From contig NZ_JWLC01000014.1 of assembly GCF_000813745.1 (NCBI RefSeq), forward strand, positions 124,001 through 188,000: DNA of 64,000 nucleotides, written 5' to 3'. A model generated the notes under the pieces. It worked only from the letters and a program-made list of their open reading frames with translations, was not told the origin of the DNA and searched no databases. Made by a program: the position numbers and the translations under genes. Below, piece after piece: positions 51,319 through 59,812 of the stretch; position 1 is the first letter of the stretch; each line of letters opens with the position of its first letter. Source of the DNA: Leisingera sp. ANG-M1. GTDB lineage: Bacteria; Pseudomonadota; Alphaproteobacteria; Rhodobacterales; Rhodobacteraceae.

Positions 51319-53256
51319 TCAGCCGCCTTCGTCTTCCAGCCGCACCAGCGCTGCGCCGGCCTCAACCTGGTCGCCAGCAGCGGCCAGGACCTCGGCCACC
51401 ACGCCGTCGCGGGCCGCCAGAAGCGAATGCTCCATTTTCATCGCTTCCAGAATGGCGAGCCGGTCACCTTCTTTCACCGCCTGGCCGGCCTCTGCAAAGA
51501 CCGCCTTGACCAGACCGGGCATCGGCGCCTCGATCACATTGCTGTCGCCGCCTGCAGCCGCATCACGGTCCAGCGGATCAATGGCTGTGAACTCCAGCCC
51601 ATAAGCATCATGCACGGTGATCAATGGCCCCGACTGCGAAACAGCCGGCATCCGGCGCTCGTCAATGCGCCACTGGCCCTGGCTGCGCTCCGCCACGACG
51701 GTTTCGCCATCAACGGTCCAAAGCTGCCGGTCCGGCCCGTCCACCTGCACGTCAGCGGTGAACTCCTCGCCCGCATGGGAAAGAGTGACAGCCCGGTGCA
51801 AAGGCGCCCAGAGGGTGAAACCAGTGTCAGGCGCAGCCTCCACCAGATCCAGCGCCACCATGCCAGCCGCCGCCTTGTGGCGCAGCTCCACCACCGGCGC
51901 CGCGGTCAGCGCGTCCAGATCACGGGCAATCAGGCCGGTGTCCACCTCGCCGTTGGCAAAGCCCTCATGCGCAGCCAGCGCGCCAAGGAAGGCCAGGTTA
52001 GTGACGGTGCCGCCAACTTGCGTTTCCTCCAGCGCGCGTGCCAGCCGCGACAGCGCCACCTTGCGGGTAGAGCCATGCACGATCACCTTGGCGATCATCG
52101 GGTCGTACCAAGGGCTGATGGTATCCCCTGCCCGTACGCCGCTGTCGGCGCGGGCCTCTGCCGGGAAGGACAGATGCGTCAGCGTGCCGGTTGCAGGCAG
52201 GAAGCCTTTGGGCACGTCCTCCGCATAAAGCCGTGCCTCAAACGCGTGGCCGGTGATCGAGAGGTCTTCCTGTTTTGCCGGGAGCTTCTCGCCGGAAGCA
52301 ACGCGCAGCTGCCAATCCACCAGGTCGACACCGGTGATCAGCTCCGTGACCGGGTGCTCGACCTGCAGGCGGGTGTTCATTTCCATGAACCAGAATCCGT
52401 CGGGGCGCAGCCCGCCGGAGCCATCGACGATGAATTCCACCGTGCCTGCGCCCTTGTAGCCGATGGCTTCGGCCGCGCGCACGCCGGCCTGCCCCATTGC
52501 CTCGCGCATCTCCGCAGTCATGCCCGGCGCCGGGGCCTCCTCGATCACCTTCTGATGGCGCCGCTGCAGGGAGCAGTCGCGCTCGAACAAATGCACCGCG
52601 GTTTCGCCGTCGCCAAAGACTTGAACTTCGATATGCCGCGGCTGCTGGATGTATTTCTCGATCAATACATCCGGGTTGCCAAAGGCCGTGGTCGCTTCTC
52701 CTTGCGCGCTTTGCAGCGCGTCAGAGAAATCCTCCGGCTGCTCTACCAGGCGCATCCCCTTGCCGCCGCCGCCCGCAACCGCCTTGATCAGCACCGGATA
52801 GCCGATTTCCTCTGCTTGCGCAGCCAGGAACGCCGCATCCTGATTGGCACCGTGATAGCCCGGCACCACCGGCACCCCGGCCTCTTCCATCAGCGCTTTG
52901 GCCGCATCTTTCAGACCCATCTTGCGGATCGCCCCGGCCGAGGGTCCAATAAAAGTGAGGCCTGCAGCTTCCACCGCTTCCACAAACTCTGGGTTCTCGG
53001 ACAGGAAGCCATAGCCCGGGTGGATGGCCTGCGCACCGGTGGCCCGCGCGGCCCCGATGATACGCTCGCCCAGCAGATAAGACGCCGCCGGGGCCGCGCC
53101 GCCGATATGCACCGCTTCATCCGCCAGCGCCACATGCTTTGAGGCAGCATCGGCATCGGAGTAAACCGCGACGGTCCGCACCCCCATGGCACGGGCGGTT
53201 TCTATCACGCGGCAGGCGATCTCGCCGCGGTTGGCAATCAGGATTTTGTCAAACAT
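51319..53256 (-). CDS. liuD: methylcrotonyl-CoA carboxylase alpha (biotin) subunit
   Basis: Biotin carboxylase plus biotin carrier, 645 residues. The N-terminal ATP-grasp has KAVAGGGGKGMRLVE and RDCSLQRRHQKVIEEAP. The biotinylated lysine is Lys607 in EAMKMEH, near the C-terminus. Assigned as the methylcrotonyl enzyme because of the surrounding mccB, ivd, HMG-CoA lyase and synthetase. The fold is shared with acetyl- and propionyl-CoA carboxylases. Lies 78 bases after mccB with a family A repeat in between. Confidence 0.92.
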   Translation of the reverse strand: MFDKILIANRGEIACRVIETARAMGVRTVAVYSDADAASKHVALADEAVHIGGAAPAASYLLGERIIGAARATGAQAIHPGYGFLSENPEFVEAVEAAGLTFIGPSAGAIRKMGLKDAAKALMEEAGVPVVPGYHGANQDAAFLAAQAEEIGYPVLIKAVAGGGGKGMRLVEQPEDFSDALQSAQGEATTAFGNPDVLIEKYIQQPRHIEVQVFGDGETAVHLFERDCSLQRRHQKVIEEAPAPGMTAEMREAMGQAGVRAAEAIGYKGAGTVEFIVDGSGGLRPDGFWFMEMNTRLQVEHPVTELITGVDLVDWQLRVASGEKLPAKQEDLSITGHAFEARLYAEDVPKGFLPATGTLTHLSFPAEARADSGVRAGDTISPWYDPMIAKVIVHGSTRKVALSRLARALEETQVGGTVTNLAFLGALAAHEGFANGEVDTGLIARDLDALTAAPVVELRHKAAAGMVALDLVEAAPDTGFTLWAPLHRAVTLSHAGEEFTADVQVDGPDRQLWTVDGETVVAERSQGQWRIDERRMPAVSQSGPLITVHDAYGLEFTAIDPLDRDAAAGGDSNVIEAPMPGLVKAVFAEAGQAVKEGDRLAILEAMKMEHSLLAARDGVVAEVLAAAGDQVEAGAALVRLEDEGG

Positions 53257-53334: not shown

Positions 53335-54939
53335 TCACATCCGGAACACGCCAAAGCGGGTGTCCTCGATCGGAGCATTCAGCGCGGCGCTGAGCGACAG
53401 CGCCAGCACGTCGCGGCTTTTGCGCGGGTCGATGATGCCGTCATCCCAAAGGCGCGCAGAGGCATAAAGCGGGTGGCTTTGCTCCTCGAACATATCGATG
53501 GTGGGCTGCTTGAAGGCCGCCTCCTCTTCAGCATTCCAGCTGCCGCCCTGGCGCTCGATGGCGTCGCGTTTGACGGTGGCCAGCACGCCCGCCGCCTGCT
53601 CGCCGCCCATCACCGAGATGCGGGAGTTGGGCCAGGTCCACAAAAACCTAGGCTGATAGGCACGGCCCGACATGCCATAGTTGCCCGCGCCAAAGGAGCC
53701 GCCGACCAGCATAGTGATCTTGGGGACATTGGTGGTCGCCACGGCGGTCACCATCTTGGCGCCGTGGCGGGCGATGCCCTCGTTTTCGTACTTCCGCCCT
53801 ACCATGAAGCCGGTGATATTCTGCAAAAACACCAGCGGGATCTTGCGCTGCGAGCACAGTTCGACGAAATGCGCGCCCTTCTGGGCAGCCTCCGAGAACA
53901 GCACGCCATTGTTGGCAATGATGCCGATGGGGCAGCCCTTCAGATGCGCAAAACCGGTCACCAGGGTTTCGCCAAAGCGCGGCTTGAACTCGTCAAAGCG
54001 CGAGCCGTCCACCAGCCGCGCGATCACTTCGCGAATATCATAAGGCGTGCGCAGATCGCCCGGCACCACGCCGAGGATCTCCTCCGGGTCATAGGCGGGC
54101 TCTTCCGGAGTTGCCCAGTTCACCGTTTGCGGCCTGGTGATGTTCAGCGACTGCACCGCGCGCCGCGCCAACGCCAGCGCATGGGCGTCATCCTCCGCCA
54201 GGTAATCCGCCACGCCGGAAAGGCGGGTGTGCACGTCTCCGCCGCCCAGGTCCTCGGCGCTGACCACTTCACCCGTAGCGGCTTTCACCAGCGGCGGGCC
54301 GGCCAGGAAGATCGTGCCCTGCTCCTTCACGATGATAGTCACATCCGACATCGCAGGCACATAGGCGCCGCCCGCGGTGCAGGAGCCCATGACCACAGCA
54401 ATCTGCGGGATGCCTTTGGCCGACATCCGCGCCTGGTTGTAGAAGATGCGCCCGAAGTGGTCGCGGTCCGGAAAGACCTCATCCTGGTTCGGCAGGTTGG
54501 CGCCGCCCGAGTCCACCAGATAGATGCAAGGAAGGCGGTTTTCCTCGGCAATTTCCTGCGCCCGCAGGTGTTTCTTCACGGTCATCGGGTAATAGGTTCC
54601 GCCCTTCACGGTGGCGTCGTTGCAGACCACCATGACCTCTTGCCCCTGCACCCGGCCGATGCCCGCAATAACACCCGCAGACGGCGCGGCGCCGTCATAC
54701 ATGGCGTGCGCCGCGGTGGCGCCGATTTCCAGGAACGGCGAGCCCGGATCCAAGAGGTTGGCCACCCGTCGGCGCGGCAGCATCTTGCCGCGGGACTCAT
54801 GCCGGGCGCGGGATTTCTCTCCGCCGCCCATGCGCGCAGCCTCTGCCACCTCGCTGATCTGCGCCAGCGCCGCCAGGTGCGCCTCACGGTTCTGCTTGAA
54901 GCCGTCCGAGGAGGGCATCGCCTTGGATGTGAGTTTCAT
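53335..54939 (-). CDS. liuB: methylcrotonyl-CoA carboxylase beta (carboxyltransferase) subunit
   Basis: A 534-residue carboxyltransferase with the crotonase-like double domain. Motifs include [51 protein letters not shown] and [17 protein letters not shown]. It works with the biotin subunit. The start is one base after the stop of the unknown gene upstream. The ribosome site there, AAGGTG, is only fair and falls inside that gene, so translation may be coupled to it. Confidence 0.94.
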
Positions 54940-54940
54940 C

Positions 54941-55816
54941 TTAGCTGGTCACCTTCACTACTACACGTTGCGGTTTTTGAGAACTCTTCACGACACGTGG
55001 AAGAAAAACATCTAATTCCATCGAACCATTGAGCAATTGGAGGCGCATTTTTCGGATCAAATCCATTACATGCGCAACCTGCACAACGGCCTTCAAATCG
55101 GATCGAAAGTCCGTTTCCTCAAAGCCATGCTCCAGAAGCTTCTTCTCTTCCTGCTTGCGCCCTTTGGGCATGTGAATCCATTGAACTGCAGAAGTCATGG
55201 GCTGCATAATACTCTCATCACTTCCCAGGCGCGTAATTTTCCAAGCATCGCCAACGACAGGCTGAAGTGCCCTTCCATGTTTAAATGAGCTCACTACCTG
55301 TCTGTTGGCTAGTAAATTTGCTTCGGCCACAAAAAGCTCTCTGTATTCGCTCAATTCTGGAAACTGAGCCCCTAAAGCAATGTTCAAAGCGAACCATTCT
55401 TCGAAACCAGTCGGAAGCTTCTTACCTTTGAAAAAAGGCGTTTCCGGAACTTTTGCCAGCGCGAGTTGTTGAAACACAGTTTCTAGCTCGGCGGGATACA
55501 AATGAGACAGCGCCTTTGGCGTCGGCCCAGTTGGATGCCCAGAGCAAACTAGAACAACAAATGTCTCACTGTTCAGATACCTAAAATACCTCGCAGCTGC
55601 ACTTCTTGTGGCCTCGAAACGTTCAACGTGATCTGTAAGATAATCCCGATACTCTGCGTCGTCGTCTTGCTCAAAGAGCTCATCCAAGAACTCTGTCCCC
55701 AATGGGGTTTGAAATTGAAGCAGTGCCCGCACAAAGAAGTAAGGATCAAAAAACTGAAGAAATCGCCGCTCTGCTTCGATTTCAAGCTCTGAGTATTGGT
55801 TAAAAAGTGTTGTCAT
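54941..55816 (-). CDS. unknown protein inserted in the liu operon
   Basis: A 291-residue, apparently soluble, largely helical protein that I do not recognise. No signal peptide or membrane helix. Asp/Glu-rich stretch [14 protein letters not shown] near residue 50, a [14 protein letters not shown] segment, and a basic, Val-rich C-terminus ([16 protein letters not shown]). Sampled lines are 47% and 53% G+C (28/60 at 55321-55380, 32/60 at 55501-55560), against 73% in a sampled line of mccB (44/60 at 53581-53640). It has one base between it and each flanking gene and uses a GGAGG within the upstream gene's end. It looks acquired, but fits the operon exactly. Confidence 0.8.
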
Positions 55817-55817
55817 C

Positions 55818-57344
55818 TCAATGAACCTCCCCCGCAGCCCGCGCCTTCAGCGACTTGCGGATCACCTTGCCGGTTACTGTCATCGGCAGCGCCTCCAGAA
55901 ATTCCACTTCGCGCGGGTAGGAATAATGCGCAAGCCGCTCCTTGACGTAGTCCTGCAGCTCCGTCTCTGAGGCCGCGGCCTCCGGTTTCAGCACCACATA
56001 TGCCTTGACGATCTCGGTCCTGAGCGGGTCCGGCTTACCAACCACGCCCACGGTTGCCACCGCCGGGTGGGTCAGCAGGCAATCCTCGATCTCCGCCGGG
56101 CCGATACGGTAGCCGCCCGAGGTGATGACATCATCTTCGCGGCCCACGAACCTCAGGTAATCGCCCTCCCAGATCCCCCGGTCACCGGTCACCAGCCAGT
56201 CGCCGCGGAACTTGGCGGCGGTTTCTTCGGGCCGGTTCCAATACTTCAGCAGCATCGAAGCCGAGCCGCGGCGTACAGCGACATCACCCTCGCCGTCCGC
56301 CGGATTGCCCGCCTCATCAATCACCGCCAGCTCATGCCCCGGCACCGCTTTGCCGATACAGCCCGGACGCGGCTCGAAATCCGCGGCGCAGGAGGAGGCC
56401 ACCATATTGCATTCGGTCTGGCCATAGAACTCGTTGATGGTCACCCCCAGCTCCCGCCGGCCCCAGGCGAGCATCTCGGCGCCCAGGGGCTCGCCGCCAG
56501 AGGCAACAGAGCGCAAGGACCGAAGCCCCTGCCCCGCTGCCTTCAGCATCCTGAGCGCGGTTGGCGGGAAGAAGATATTGCGCACCCCGGCCTGATCGAT
56601 CAGGTCGGCACAGGCTTCGGGCGTGAACTTGTCCAGCCGCGCGGCAACCACCGGCACGCCCAGCGCCAGGCCCGGCATCAGCACGTCGAACAGCCCGCCG
56701 ATCCAGGCCCAGTCGGCCGGGGTCCACAAGACATCCCCCTCCTGGCCAAGATGGCCGTGGCTGATGGAGACTCCTGGCAAATGGCCGGTCAGCACCCGGT
56801 GGCCGTGCAGCGCGCCCTTGGGGCTGCCGGTGGTGCCGGAGGTATAGATCAGCACCGCAGGCGTCTCCGGCCCGGTTTCGGCAAAAGGCACCGGGCCGCC
56901 TTCGATCCCGGCACTGTCAGCCATAACGGCTTCGGCAAGATCGCCGAGCAGGTCCGCGCCTTCGGCATCCGTGAAGACAAAGCGCACGCCGGCATCACCG
57001 GCGCGGGAGGCCAAGGCATCGCGTTTGAACAGCTTGAACAGGGGCACTGAGATGCCGCCCGCCTTCCACACCGCCAGATGCGCTGCGGCGCACCAGGGCG
57101 ACTGGCTGAGCAGCACGCCCACACGATCTCCCGGCTGGATCCGCTGCAGAAGATAGCGGGCTAGCCCGTCTGCCATCTCCGCCAGCGCGCCATAGGTGAT
57201 GTCCCGCCGCTGGGATCCGGTCATGTCGATCAGGGCAAGCGCATCCGCTGGATGCGACAGACATTGCGCCGCCATGTTCAGCCGCTCTGGCAGGTCCCAG
57301 CTGCCATCGGCCAACAGCCCCGGAATGTTACGATTTTCATGCAT
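55818..57344 (-). CDS. AMP-forming acyl-CoA synthetase (liu cluster)
   Basis: A 508-residue ANL-superfamily ligase. P-loop motif LIYTSGTTGSPKGA, EFYGQTECN, TGDRGIWEGDYLRFVGR, and the catalytic Lys in MTVTGKVIRKSL near the C-terminus. In such clusters it activates a branched acid (isovalerate) or acetoacetate; the exact acid is not clear. It is divergent from ompW, so the 149-base gap may hold its promoter. One base separates it from the unknown gene. Confidence 0.92.
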   Translation of the reverse strand: MHENRNIPGLLADGSWDLPERLNMAAQCLSHPADALALIDMTGSQRRDITYGALAEMADGLARYLLQRIQPGDRVGVLLSQSPWCAAAHLAVWKAGGISVPLFKLFKRDALASRAGDAGVRFVFTDAEGADLLGDLAEAVMADSAGIEGGPVPFAETGPETPAVLIYTSGTTGSPKGALHGHRVLTGHLPGVSISHGHLGQEGDVLWTPADWAWIGGLFDVLMPGLALGVPVVAARLDKFTPEACADLIDQAGVRNIFFPPTALRMLKAAGQGLRSLRSVASGGEPLGAEMLAWGRRELGVTINEFYGQTECNMVASSCAADFEPRPGCIGKAVPGHELAVIDEAGNPADGEGDVAVRRGSASMLLKYWNRPEETAAKFRGDWLVTGDRGIWEGDYLRFVGREDDVITSGGYRIGPAEIEDCLLTHPAVATVGVVGKPDPLRTEIVKAYVVLKPEAAASETELQDYVKERLAHYSYPREVEFLEALPMTVTGKVIRKSLKARAAGEVH

Positions 57345-58154: not shown

Positions 58155-58652
58155 TTATTCGCCAAGCCAGGCGGATTCCAGGTAGAGCGCCTGCTCCCCT
58201 GTCAGCCGCATCAGGCAGCTCAGCACTGCCGGCCCGCCGCCGCTGCCGCCGCCCCACTGCGCCCTCTCGAACTCGCAGGTGGTATCACGGTAGGCAATCC
58301 AGGCCCGCTGCATCTGTTTCAACGCAGGTTCGGTTCTGGGCGCCGACGAACCCCATTCCGCCAAATCCGCGTCCGATGCCTTCGCCTTGGCCCGCAGAAC
58401 CTTGTAGGCGGCATTCAGACGGGCATCCCAGTAATCGCGTTCCTGATCCAGGCAGTCCATCATCCCGATGGTAGTAGACCCGCCGGAAGTCGCGCCCATG
58501 CACTGCTGCGCAGCCAGTCCCAAGCAGCCACGCTTGGCTTCCGGCGCGGCCGCCTGCGCAACACAGGCGTCTGTTGCAGCAGGAGAAAACCGGACCTCCT
58601 GTGCCGCCGCTGGTCCTGCCAGCAACACCGCTGCAAGCAGGGCCATACGCAT
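58155..58652 (-). CDS. DUF1311 (LprI-like) exported protein
   Basis: A 165-residue exported protein with a signal peptide [17 protein letters not shown] and the LprI/DUF1311 pattern: several cysteines (ACVAQ, RGCLGL, QQCMG, MDCLDQE, TTCEFE, LSCLMR) and DYWDARLNAAYKVLRA, WIAYRDTTCEFE. Family members include lysozyme inhibitors. The ATG at 58652 overlaps the ivd stop by one base (TGATG), so it is co-translated with ivd although not part of leucine catabolism. Confidence 0.85.
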   Translation of the reverse strand: MRMALLAAVLLAGPAAAQEVRFSPAATDACVAQAAAPEAKRGCLGLAAQQCMGATSGGSTTIGMMDCLDQERDYWDARLNAAYKVLRAKAKASDADLAEWGSSAPRTEPALKQMQRAWIAYRDTTCEFERAQWGGGSGGGPAVLSCLMRLTGEQALYLESAWLGE

Positions 58653-59812
58653 CACATGGTTCCCATCAACTCGCGGCCGATCAGCATGCGGCGGATTTCG
58701 CTAGTGCCGGCACCGATTTCCATCAGTTTGGCATCGCGGAAGATGCGCCCCACCGGGTTGTCGGAGAGGTAGCCCGCACCGCCAAAGGCCTGCACCGCCT
58801 GGTGCGCCTGGGTCATCGCGACTTCGGATGCGTAGAGACAGCAGGCCGCGGCGTCCTGGCGGGTCACGGTGCCTTTGTCGCAGGATTTGGCGACTTCATA
58901 GACATAGGCCCGGGCCGAATTCATCGCCGTGTACATATCGGCGATCTTGGCCTGCATCAGCTGGAAGTTTCCGATCGGCTGTCCGAACTGCTTGCGCTCC
59001 GCCATGTAGGGCATCATCTCATCCATGCAGGAGGCCATGATGCCGGTGCCAATGCCTGCCAGCACCACACGTTCATAGTCCAGGCCGGACATCAGCACGC
59101 GCACGCCCTTGCCCTCCTCCCCTAGCACGTTCTCAAACGGCACTTCGACGTCTTCAAAGATCAGCTCAGCGGTGTTGGAGCCGCGCATGCCCAGCTTGTC
59201 GAAATGCTTGGAGGTGGAGAAACCCGCCATCTCTTTTTCGATCAGGAAAGCGGTGATGCCTTTGGAGCCCGCCTCCGGATCGGTCTTTGCATAGACCACC
59301 AGTGTGTCGGCGTCAGGACCATTGGTGATCCAGTACTTGTTGCCGTTCAGCCGGTAGTGATCGTTGCGCTTCTCCGCGCGCAGCGACATTGACACCACAT
59401 CCGATCCCGCGCCCGCTTCGGACATCGCCAGCGCGCCGACATGCTCGCCGGAGAGCAGCCGCGGCAAGTACTTCTTCTTCTGCTCCGCGTTGCCGTTCAG
59501 CTTGATCTGATTGACGCAGAGGTTCGAATGCGCGCCATAGGACAGCGAGACAGAGGCGCTGGCGCGGGCGATTTCCTCAATGGCGACGGTATGGGCCAGG
59601 TAGGACATGCCGGCACCGCCGAACTCTTCTGGCACGGTGATGCCCAAGAGGCCCAGCTCCCCCATCTCCTGCCACAGCTCAGCCGGGAATTCATTGTTCT
59701 GGTCGATCTCCTGCGCCATCGGCTTTACGCGCTCCTGCGCCCAGCGGTGCACCGCGTCGCGCAGGGCGTTGACGTCTTCGCCCAGATCAAAAGTCATGCT
59801 TGCATTGAACAT
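58652..59812 (-). CDS. liuA: isovaleryl-CoA dehydrogenase
   Basis: Flavin acyl-CoA dehydrogenase of 386 residues. It converts isovaleryl-CoA to 3-methylcrotonyl-CoA. N-terminal [22 protein letters not shown] motifs [13 protein letters not shown] and WITNGPDAD, and the catalytic Glu247 in [11 protein letters not shown] at the isovaleryl-type position rather than the C-terminal position of short-chain enzymes. GGGAGG upstream. First gene of the cluster, preceded by a promoter with an operator-like dyad. Confidence 0.95.

Follow-up and report, generated by a model that had tools for sequence, protein, structure and literature searches.

Within a 64-kb window of Leisingera sp. ANG-M1 (the whole stretch of 64,000 nucleotides that was analysed, from contig NZ_JWLC01000014.1), a gene that we call X lies inside an operon for leucine catabolism (liu). 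An intact open reading frame (ORF) with an ATG start, X (54941-55816, minus strand) encodes a 291-amino-acid (aa) protein of an unnamed family in which a by-eye reading shows no signal peptide. It is flanked upstream by acs (55818-57344, minus strand; AMP-binding acyl-CoA synthetase, Pfam PF00501, E = 4.8e-62) and downstream by mccB (53335-54939, minus strand; carboxyl transferase subunit, judged by its context to be of methylcrotonyl-CoA type, Pfam PF01039, E = 1.4e-156). Position 55817 is the one base separating the acs stop (TGA) from the X start (ATG), and position 54940 the one base separating the X stop (TAA) from the mccB start (ATG). A preliminary description of the locus had given exactly these coordinates and was right that X is placed seamlessly. 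The finding is the slot directly 5' of mccB rather than X alone: we are confident in this slot and in the X family, and we favour, by a narrower measure, the overall explanation that X is a cargo gene in a recurrently used cargo slot of the liu operon.

X is also AT-richer than the operon around it, as had been described, with a G+C content (GC) of 0.466 and a third-codon-position value (GC3) of 0.455 against GC/GC3 of 0.646/0.82 in mccB, 0.661/0.79 in acs and 0.654/0.76 in mccA. No 870-base stretch of the window is richer in AT than the one starting at 54959, whose GC is 0.464, compared with a window mean of 0.625 and a standard deviation of 0.032 among overlapping sliding stretches of that size. 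Apart from acs and mccB, the liu genes were named by reading their sequences; they include mccA (51319-53256, minus strand; biotin carboxylase subunit) and ivd (58652-59812, minus strand; acyl-CoA dehydrogenase, isovaleryl-CoA type). The constant downstream neighbour of the slot is mccB; ivd forms its upstream flank in genomes without acs there.

Relatives of X in the same slot

We found five relatives of X in the taxonomic family, all five of which occupy the slot directly 5' of mccB. In Pseudophaeobacter leonis, in G007 (a member of the window's genus) and in G581, X lies between acs and mccB, with the 305-aa version of G007 overlapping both neighbours; in G032 and G548 it lies between ivd and mccB. 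All six copies, that of the window included, have open frames, a GC of 0.46-0.49, and a stop/start overlap or one-base spacing at both seams. The P. leonis protein, found by a pattern-based scan of GTDB contigs, is 76% identical to that of the window, and those of the four other family relatives are 22-29% identical to it; except for the window-P. leonis pair, pairwise identities among the six are 22-46%, and their mccB proteins are 84-97% identical. In the P. leonis draft (L004 4472-8481), acs and mccB are each split into two frames.

AT-richness is a trait of the X family and not a clock of transfer. Taken as a single, recent, exact insertion, the preliminary interpretation is not supported: the same slot holds X in P. 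leonis and in four divergent versions, all equally AT-rich, and its content varies across the family. A recent lone insertion was rejected on the strength of these five same-slot relatives and of an old synonymous divergence (see below).

Despite this constancy of place, X is rare. Matches occurred in 3 of 101 relative genomes (own genome included), which supports X being an accessory gene. Profile searches, in overlapping taxonomic samples that each count the own genome, found X in 2 of 394 genomes at family level and 3 of 292 at order level, and in the own genome only among the 385 genomes of the class sample and the 299 of the phylum sample. Outside the family, tblastn revealed homologs on rhizobial plasmids of Phyllobacterium zundukense and Neorhizobium galegae, with 22-26% identity over approximately three quarters of the length.

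Variable content of the slot in close relatives

We compared the acs-mccB junction across 20 other genomes of the same genus. Twelve hold just a spacer of 76-100 bp, six hold a gene for a signal-peptide-like Cys protein of 153-167 aa, one (G005) has a gap whose gene is probably an antisense ORF, and one (G007) holds X, 27% identical to that of the window. X is thus far from being present with normal GC in nearly all close relatives, the outcome that the preliminary description had named as fatal to its view. As a control, the mccB-mccA junction measures 78 bp in the window and 9-90 bp in all 20 same-genus genomes.

The pattern extends to the wider family, where mccB was matched in 156 of 198 genomes and we examined 69 loci besides the window, these being the best-scoring ones rather than a random draw. 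In the 65 with acs or ivd upstream within the stretch, the junction with mccB is shorter than 150 bp in 24 (17 of them a 4-base overlap) and at least 150 bp in 41. X was not among the ORFs listed at any of the 69 loci. The earlier assumption that these liu genes are normally adjacent is only partly right: 12 of the 20 same-genus and 24 of the 65 family junctions are short, and the rest are gene-sized or occupied. Occupants that cluster include DUF1311-like, signal-peptide-like Cys, flavodoxin-like and zinc-ribbon proteins, as well as an opposite-strand gene of outer-membrane type (all named by reading). Besides an Mrr-type protein described below, five slot occupants were searched against Pfam and three against PADLOC, with zero matches.

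Turnover is visible even within single genera. The three species of one genus differ from each other at the slot: G1231 has an empty junction with a GTGA overlap, in G548 X overlaps each of its neighbours by 4 bases, and G165 (L136/L138) carries a gene for a 180-aa membrane-like protein, with a GC of 0.39, 4-base overlaps on either side and no match in Pfam or PADLOC. Among nine genomes of G581's genus, two have an empty slot closed by a 4-base overlap, X is present in one, and other gene-sized gaps occur in six. Conserved flanks enclosing different, unrelated genes in close relatives, as expected of a cargo slot, were thus found in the 20 same-genus genomes, the 65 family loci and the genera of G548 and G581. 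The mccB-mccA junction reaches 578 bp in G581 and 418 bp in G548, so cargo is not restricted to one operon junction. The mccB-mccA junction of G581 contains a 190-aa gene of lower GC (L062 8674-9246) that looks SNase-like by eye, which indicates that other operon junctions can take cargo too.

Other frames were also seen at the junction. Related antisense ORFs (131 and 174 aa) occupy the slot in two genera (L038 and L125), the former without a Pfam match. At same-genus loci (L035-L054), an open frame of 27-35 codons precedes mccB with its stop overlapping the mccB start (MTQGVAYPAYAAPTGNKDLNPITGEWT in G017); it occurs in 15 of 22 loci examined, differs in length by threes and was not seen where X sits. 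Ten equal-length sequences of this frame contain 9 silent and 20 replacing variant codons, so it may serve as a spacer for coupling and not encode a working peptide.

Scars and the possible movement of cargo

Two loci in other genomes carry remnants of the flanking genes. In G023, which belongs to another genus than the window, the order is ivd, two DUF1311-like genes, a 5' fragment of mccB, a 3' fragment of ivd, a nuclease gene and mccB. The mccB fragment spans 36 bp at 86% identity and the ivd fragment 128 bp at 72% identity to the genome's own ivd; the fragments and the nuclease gene lie directly before mccB (L135 6180-7689; G023:C1:1018179-1019688). The nuclease gene is AT-rich (GC 0.42) and encodes 436 aa with an Mrr_cat domain (E = 4e-7); in PADLOC the protein had a weak match to LmuB (E = 0.009), and it is the sole nuclease-type occupant seen. 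The best explanation for this arrangement is that a donor segment comprising an ivd 3' end, the nuclease gene and an mccB 5' end recombined into mccB, which we prefer because a local duplication would also have repeated the DUF1311-like genes. In G1234 (L140), two slot genes are separated by a duplicate of the mccB 5' end, 83 bp long and 83% identical, that lies 717 bases before mccB. A scan of 68 gaps for such remnants gave clear ones in G023 alone, the G1234 locus lying outside those 68; short or weak lines at ten other loci (E = 2e-4 to 0.008; best 5e-5, a 22-base match at L120) were taken as chance.

For both scars, the best explanation is that cargo came in by recombination within the liu flanks. 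Genomes would then gain, lose and swap cargo through their conserved flanks, mainly the 5' end of mccB, a route whose basis is these two scars in other genomes and which we infer for X. Oliveira et al. 2017 have reportedly described exchange at hotspots by the same kind of recombination. Judging from the spacing, X would be transcribed with the operon, and ribosomes leaving acs (or ivd) would translate X and then continue into mccB, which would be unharmed.

Age, selection and possible exchange of X

Between the window and P. leonis, X has a nonsynonymous divergence (dN) of 0.145, a synonymous divergence (dS) of 1.84 and a dN/dS of about 0.08, a ratio that places X under strong purifying selection. 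The flanking genes ivd, acs, mccB and mccA have a dS of 0.92-1.38 in the same comparison (acs over 367 and mccB over 328 codons only, these genes being split in the draft), and the two X copies thus diverged no later than their flanks did. X is best read as an accessory protein encoded by a single gene, belonging to a small family without a name, that has been kept for long under selection.

The relationship with G007 is very different. Whereas ivd, acs and mccB differ between the window and G007 by a dN of just 0.02-0.06, X differs by 0.96 (267 codons). The ranking of relatives is also reversed: mccB of the window is 97.4% identical to that of G007 and 93.3% (328 residues) to that of P. leonis, while X is 26.5% identical to the G007 and 76.3% to the P. 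leonis protein. This reversal in sequence identity argues that X has been exchanged or replaced at this place at least once.

Some observations count against such movement. In an approximately unbiased (AU) tree test, a clade of the window, P. leonis and G007 was not rejected with the rhizobial row included (seven proteins, p-AU = 0.06) or without it (six proteins, p-AU = 0.20), so the case for exchange rests on the identity reversal and not on topology. No mccB or ivd remnant was found at X in the window, nor was an import tract found around it: compared block by block with genus mates, the window's acs and mccB have identities like those of other strains. In part, the scars elsewhere could be old local duplications.

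These same observations bear on an alternative in which X is old and vertically inherited, having stood in the slot of the family ancestor, evolved fast and been lost in most lineages. Such a history would account for the same site in six genomes, for an X that is at least as old as its flanks by synonymous divergence, for flanks without an import tract and for a genus-compatible grouping that the AU test does not reject. It sits poorly with the dN of 0.96 between the window and G007 when P. leonis, which is further away in mccB, differs by 0.145; it also needs very many losses, and the mccB scars suggest that slot cargo moves. We regard purely vertical descent as unlikely.

Candidate functions of X

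A seven-member alignment of X proteins shows invariant positions that include D24-P25, R79, E84-T85, W141, K179-H180, W213 and D240. A conserved element, [NS][SA][FY]KH[GC], lies in a well conserved stretch covering residues 172-181 (55274-55303, minus strand), in which K179 and H180 are invariant in all seven members and position 172 is R in six and K in one. From the alignment, this element is a possible active or ligand site. It recalls the HEPN superfamily, whose members have Rx4-6H spacing and roles in defence according to PMC3710099, in that X has an N-x-x-x-H-G-like element and an upstream conserved basic residue. Unlike the HEPN proteins of PMC3710099, X has R/Kx7H spacing from position 172 to H180 in all seven members, leaving the Rx4-6H motif unmatched; it also has no profile match. 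The residue five before H180 is hydrophobic or Tyr, and the N/S of the element follows it. An AlphaFold2 model from two sequences had a mean predicted local distance difference test score (pLDDT) of 36, which makes it unusable.

The rhizobial homologs provide a lead of another kind. The fetched plasmid stretches share 863 bp alone, at 85% identity, which is the X homolog itself; because they share nothing beyond it, this gene appears to have travelled by itself. In Phyllobacterium it is intact and lies approximately 340 bp from a gene for a 1703-aa protein with partial PDC-M54A and Avs4 matches (E = 3e-12 and 1e-9). In Neorhizobium it is frameshifted and lies approximately 200 bp from a PDC-S73 match (E = 4e-128), near a PDC-S06 match. 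Overall, PADLOC matched four of the five scanned neighbours. Both rhizobial plasmid homologs are near PADLOC-type genes; the six slot copies lie in the liu operon instead. Our best functional guess, plausible if still short of probable, is that X is a defence protein encoded by one gene, of an anti-phage or abortive-infection type. The grounds are that X is rare, low in GC, fast diverging and apparently mobile as a single gene, that homologs elsewhere have defence-type neighbours, and that a nuclease occupies the same slot in another genus.

Other results tell against this guess or give it no purchase. Searches of X against the Pfam, NCBIfam, PHROGs and PADLOC profiles yielded zero matches and thus no function, with no family of PADLOC-DB 2.0.0 matching up to an E value of 5. 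A search of the PDB with profiles built with X relatives returned nothing meaningful (a single line, E = 0.64). X homologs were absent from 50,697 phage records, and two pattern-based scans of IMG/VR found no relatives. Most of the slot occupants that cluster look secreted or membrane-bound and not like defence proteins, and the defence-neighbour argument is carried by two rhizobial homologs, one of them frameshifted.

Other candidate identities were set aside along the way. X as a known enzyme or known defence protein was rejected for lack of a profile match, and X as a phage or prophage gene on the phage-record and IMG/VR results. A PADLOC scan of four X homologs, those of P. leonis and G032 not among them, gave none for three and one weak match for the G548 protein (E = 0.043). 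Two Pfam lines were all that X relatives gave (TRI4_N, E = 0.26; DUF3253, E = 0.2), and both were taken as chance. The preliminary description had proposed that X is a defence or regulatory gene carried as cargo. The cargo idea largely stands, and defence cargo remains the best guess, given the PADLOC-type neighbours in rhizobia and the same-slot Mrr nuclease, even though X itself has no PADLOC match.

The main rival to the defence guess gives X a role alongside the carboxylase or in leucine catabolism, for example as an assembly factor, regulator or helper. Its position directly 5' of mccB in all five family relatives, the tight spacing and the strong purifying selection would all fit. However, 19 of the 20 same-genus genomes have acs and mccB without X, the 69 further family mccB loci lack X among their listed ORFs, and unrelated genes occupy the same slot. 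X also matches no known liu enzyme, an identity that the preliminary description had allowed for: no family of liu or leucine catabolism enzymes in Pfam or NCBIfam matched it up to E values of 1 and 5. Furthermore, no mcc gene is annotated in the fetched rhizobial stretches, and mccB of X carriers is ordinary, being 97% identical between the window and G007 despite very different X proteins. We consider a partner role improbable.

Least likely of all is that X rides along as a neutral or selfish gene, retained only for the protection that its exact spacing gives to translation of mccB: the weakly constrained 27-35 codon spacer frame of the same genus, where coupling rather than a product may matter, offers a precedent, but X has 291 intact codons, a dN/dS of about 0.08 between the window and P. 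leonis, and open frames in all six slot copies.

Returning to the cargo slot, a bolder and quite tentative version would make the mccB start a standing docking site within a housekeeping operon. One-gene modules, whose stops overlap or abut the mccB start, would be swapped between the slots of different genera through recombination in mccB and would at once be expressed and translationally coupled; among them would be a new family of single-gene phage-defence proteins, represented by X. If so, this family would have been missed by defence catalogues, being outside defence islands.

Comparison with known systems

The mosaic operons of Omelchenko et al. 2003, in which an operon gene is reportedly displaced in situ by an equivalent, likewise feature a foreign gene in a conserved operon; unlike those genes, X has no equivalent in the operon. 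A literature search for operon-internal cargo slots, defence hotspots and this junction returned no title naming the slot among the matches listed. What makes the liu slot notable is its location inside a core catabolic operon, with seams at stop/start overlaps and scars hinting at an arrival route. It offers a testable case of accessory genes that would be expressed at once with the host operon unbroken, and it suggests that accessory genes overlooked by island surveys, perhaps including defence genes, could be sought wherever the junctions of core operons vary.

The closest parallels are chromosomal hotspots. In the core defence hotspots of Pseudomonas aeruginosa, islands of 1-224 kb (cDHS1) lie between core genes and include defence genes (PMC10250203). 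The liu slot resembles these in having a fixed place and highly variable cargo, mostly without assigned function and possibly including defence genes; it differs in usually holding one small gene inside one operon, with X seams that overlap or are one base wide, and in the single nuclease-type occupant seen here (PMC10250203). Oliveira et al. 2017 describe rapid gene turnover at few chromosomal places and state that new genes integrate rarely within operons, rather at operon edges (PMC5635113). The liu slot shares the rapid turnover of those hotspots but, unlike them, lies inside an operon (PMC5635113).
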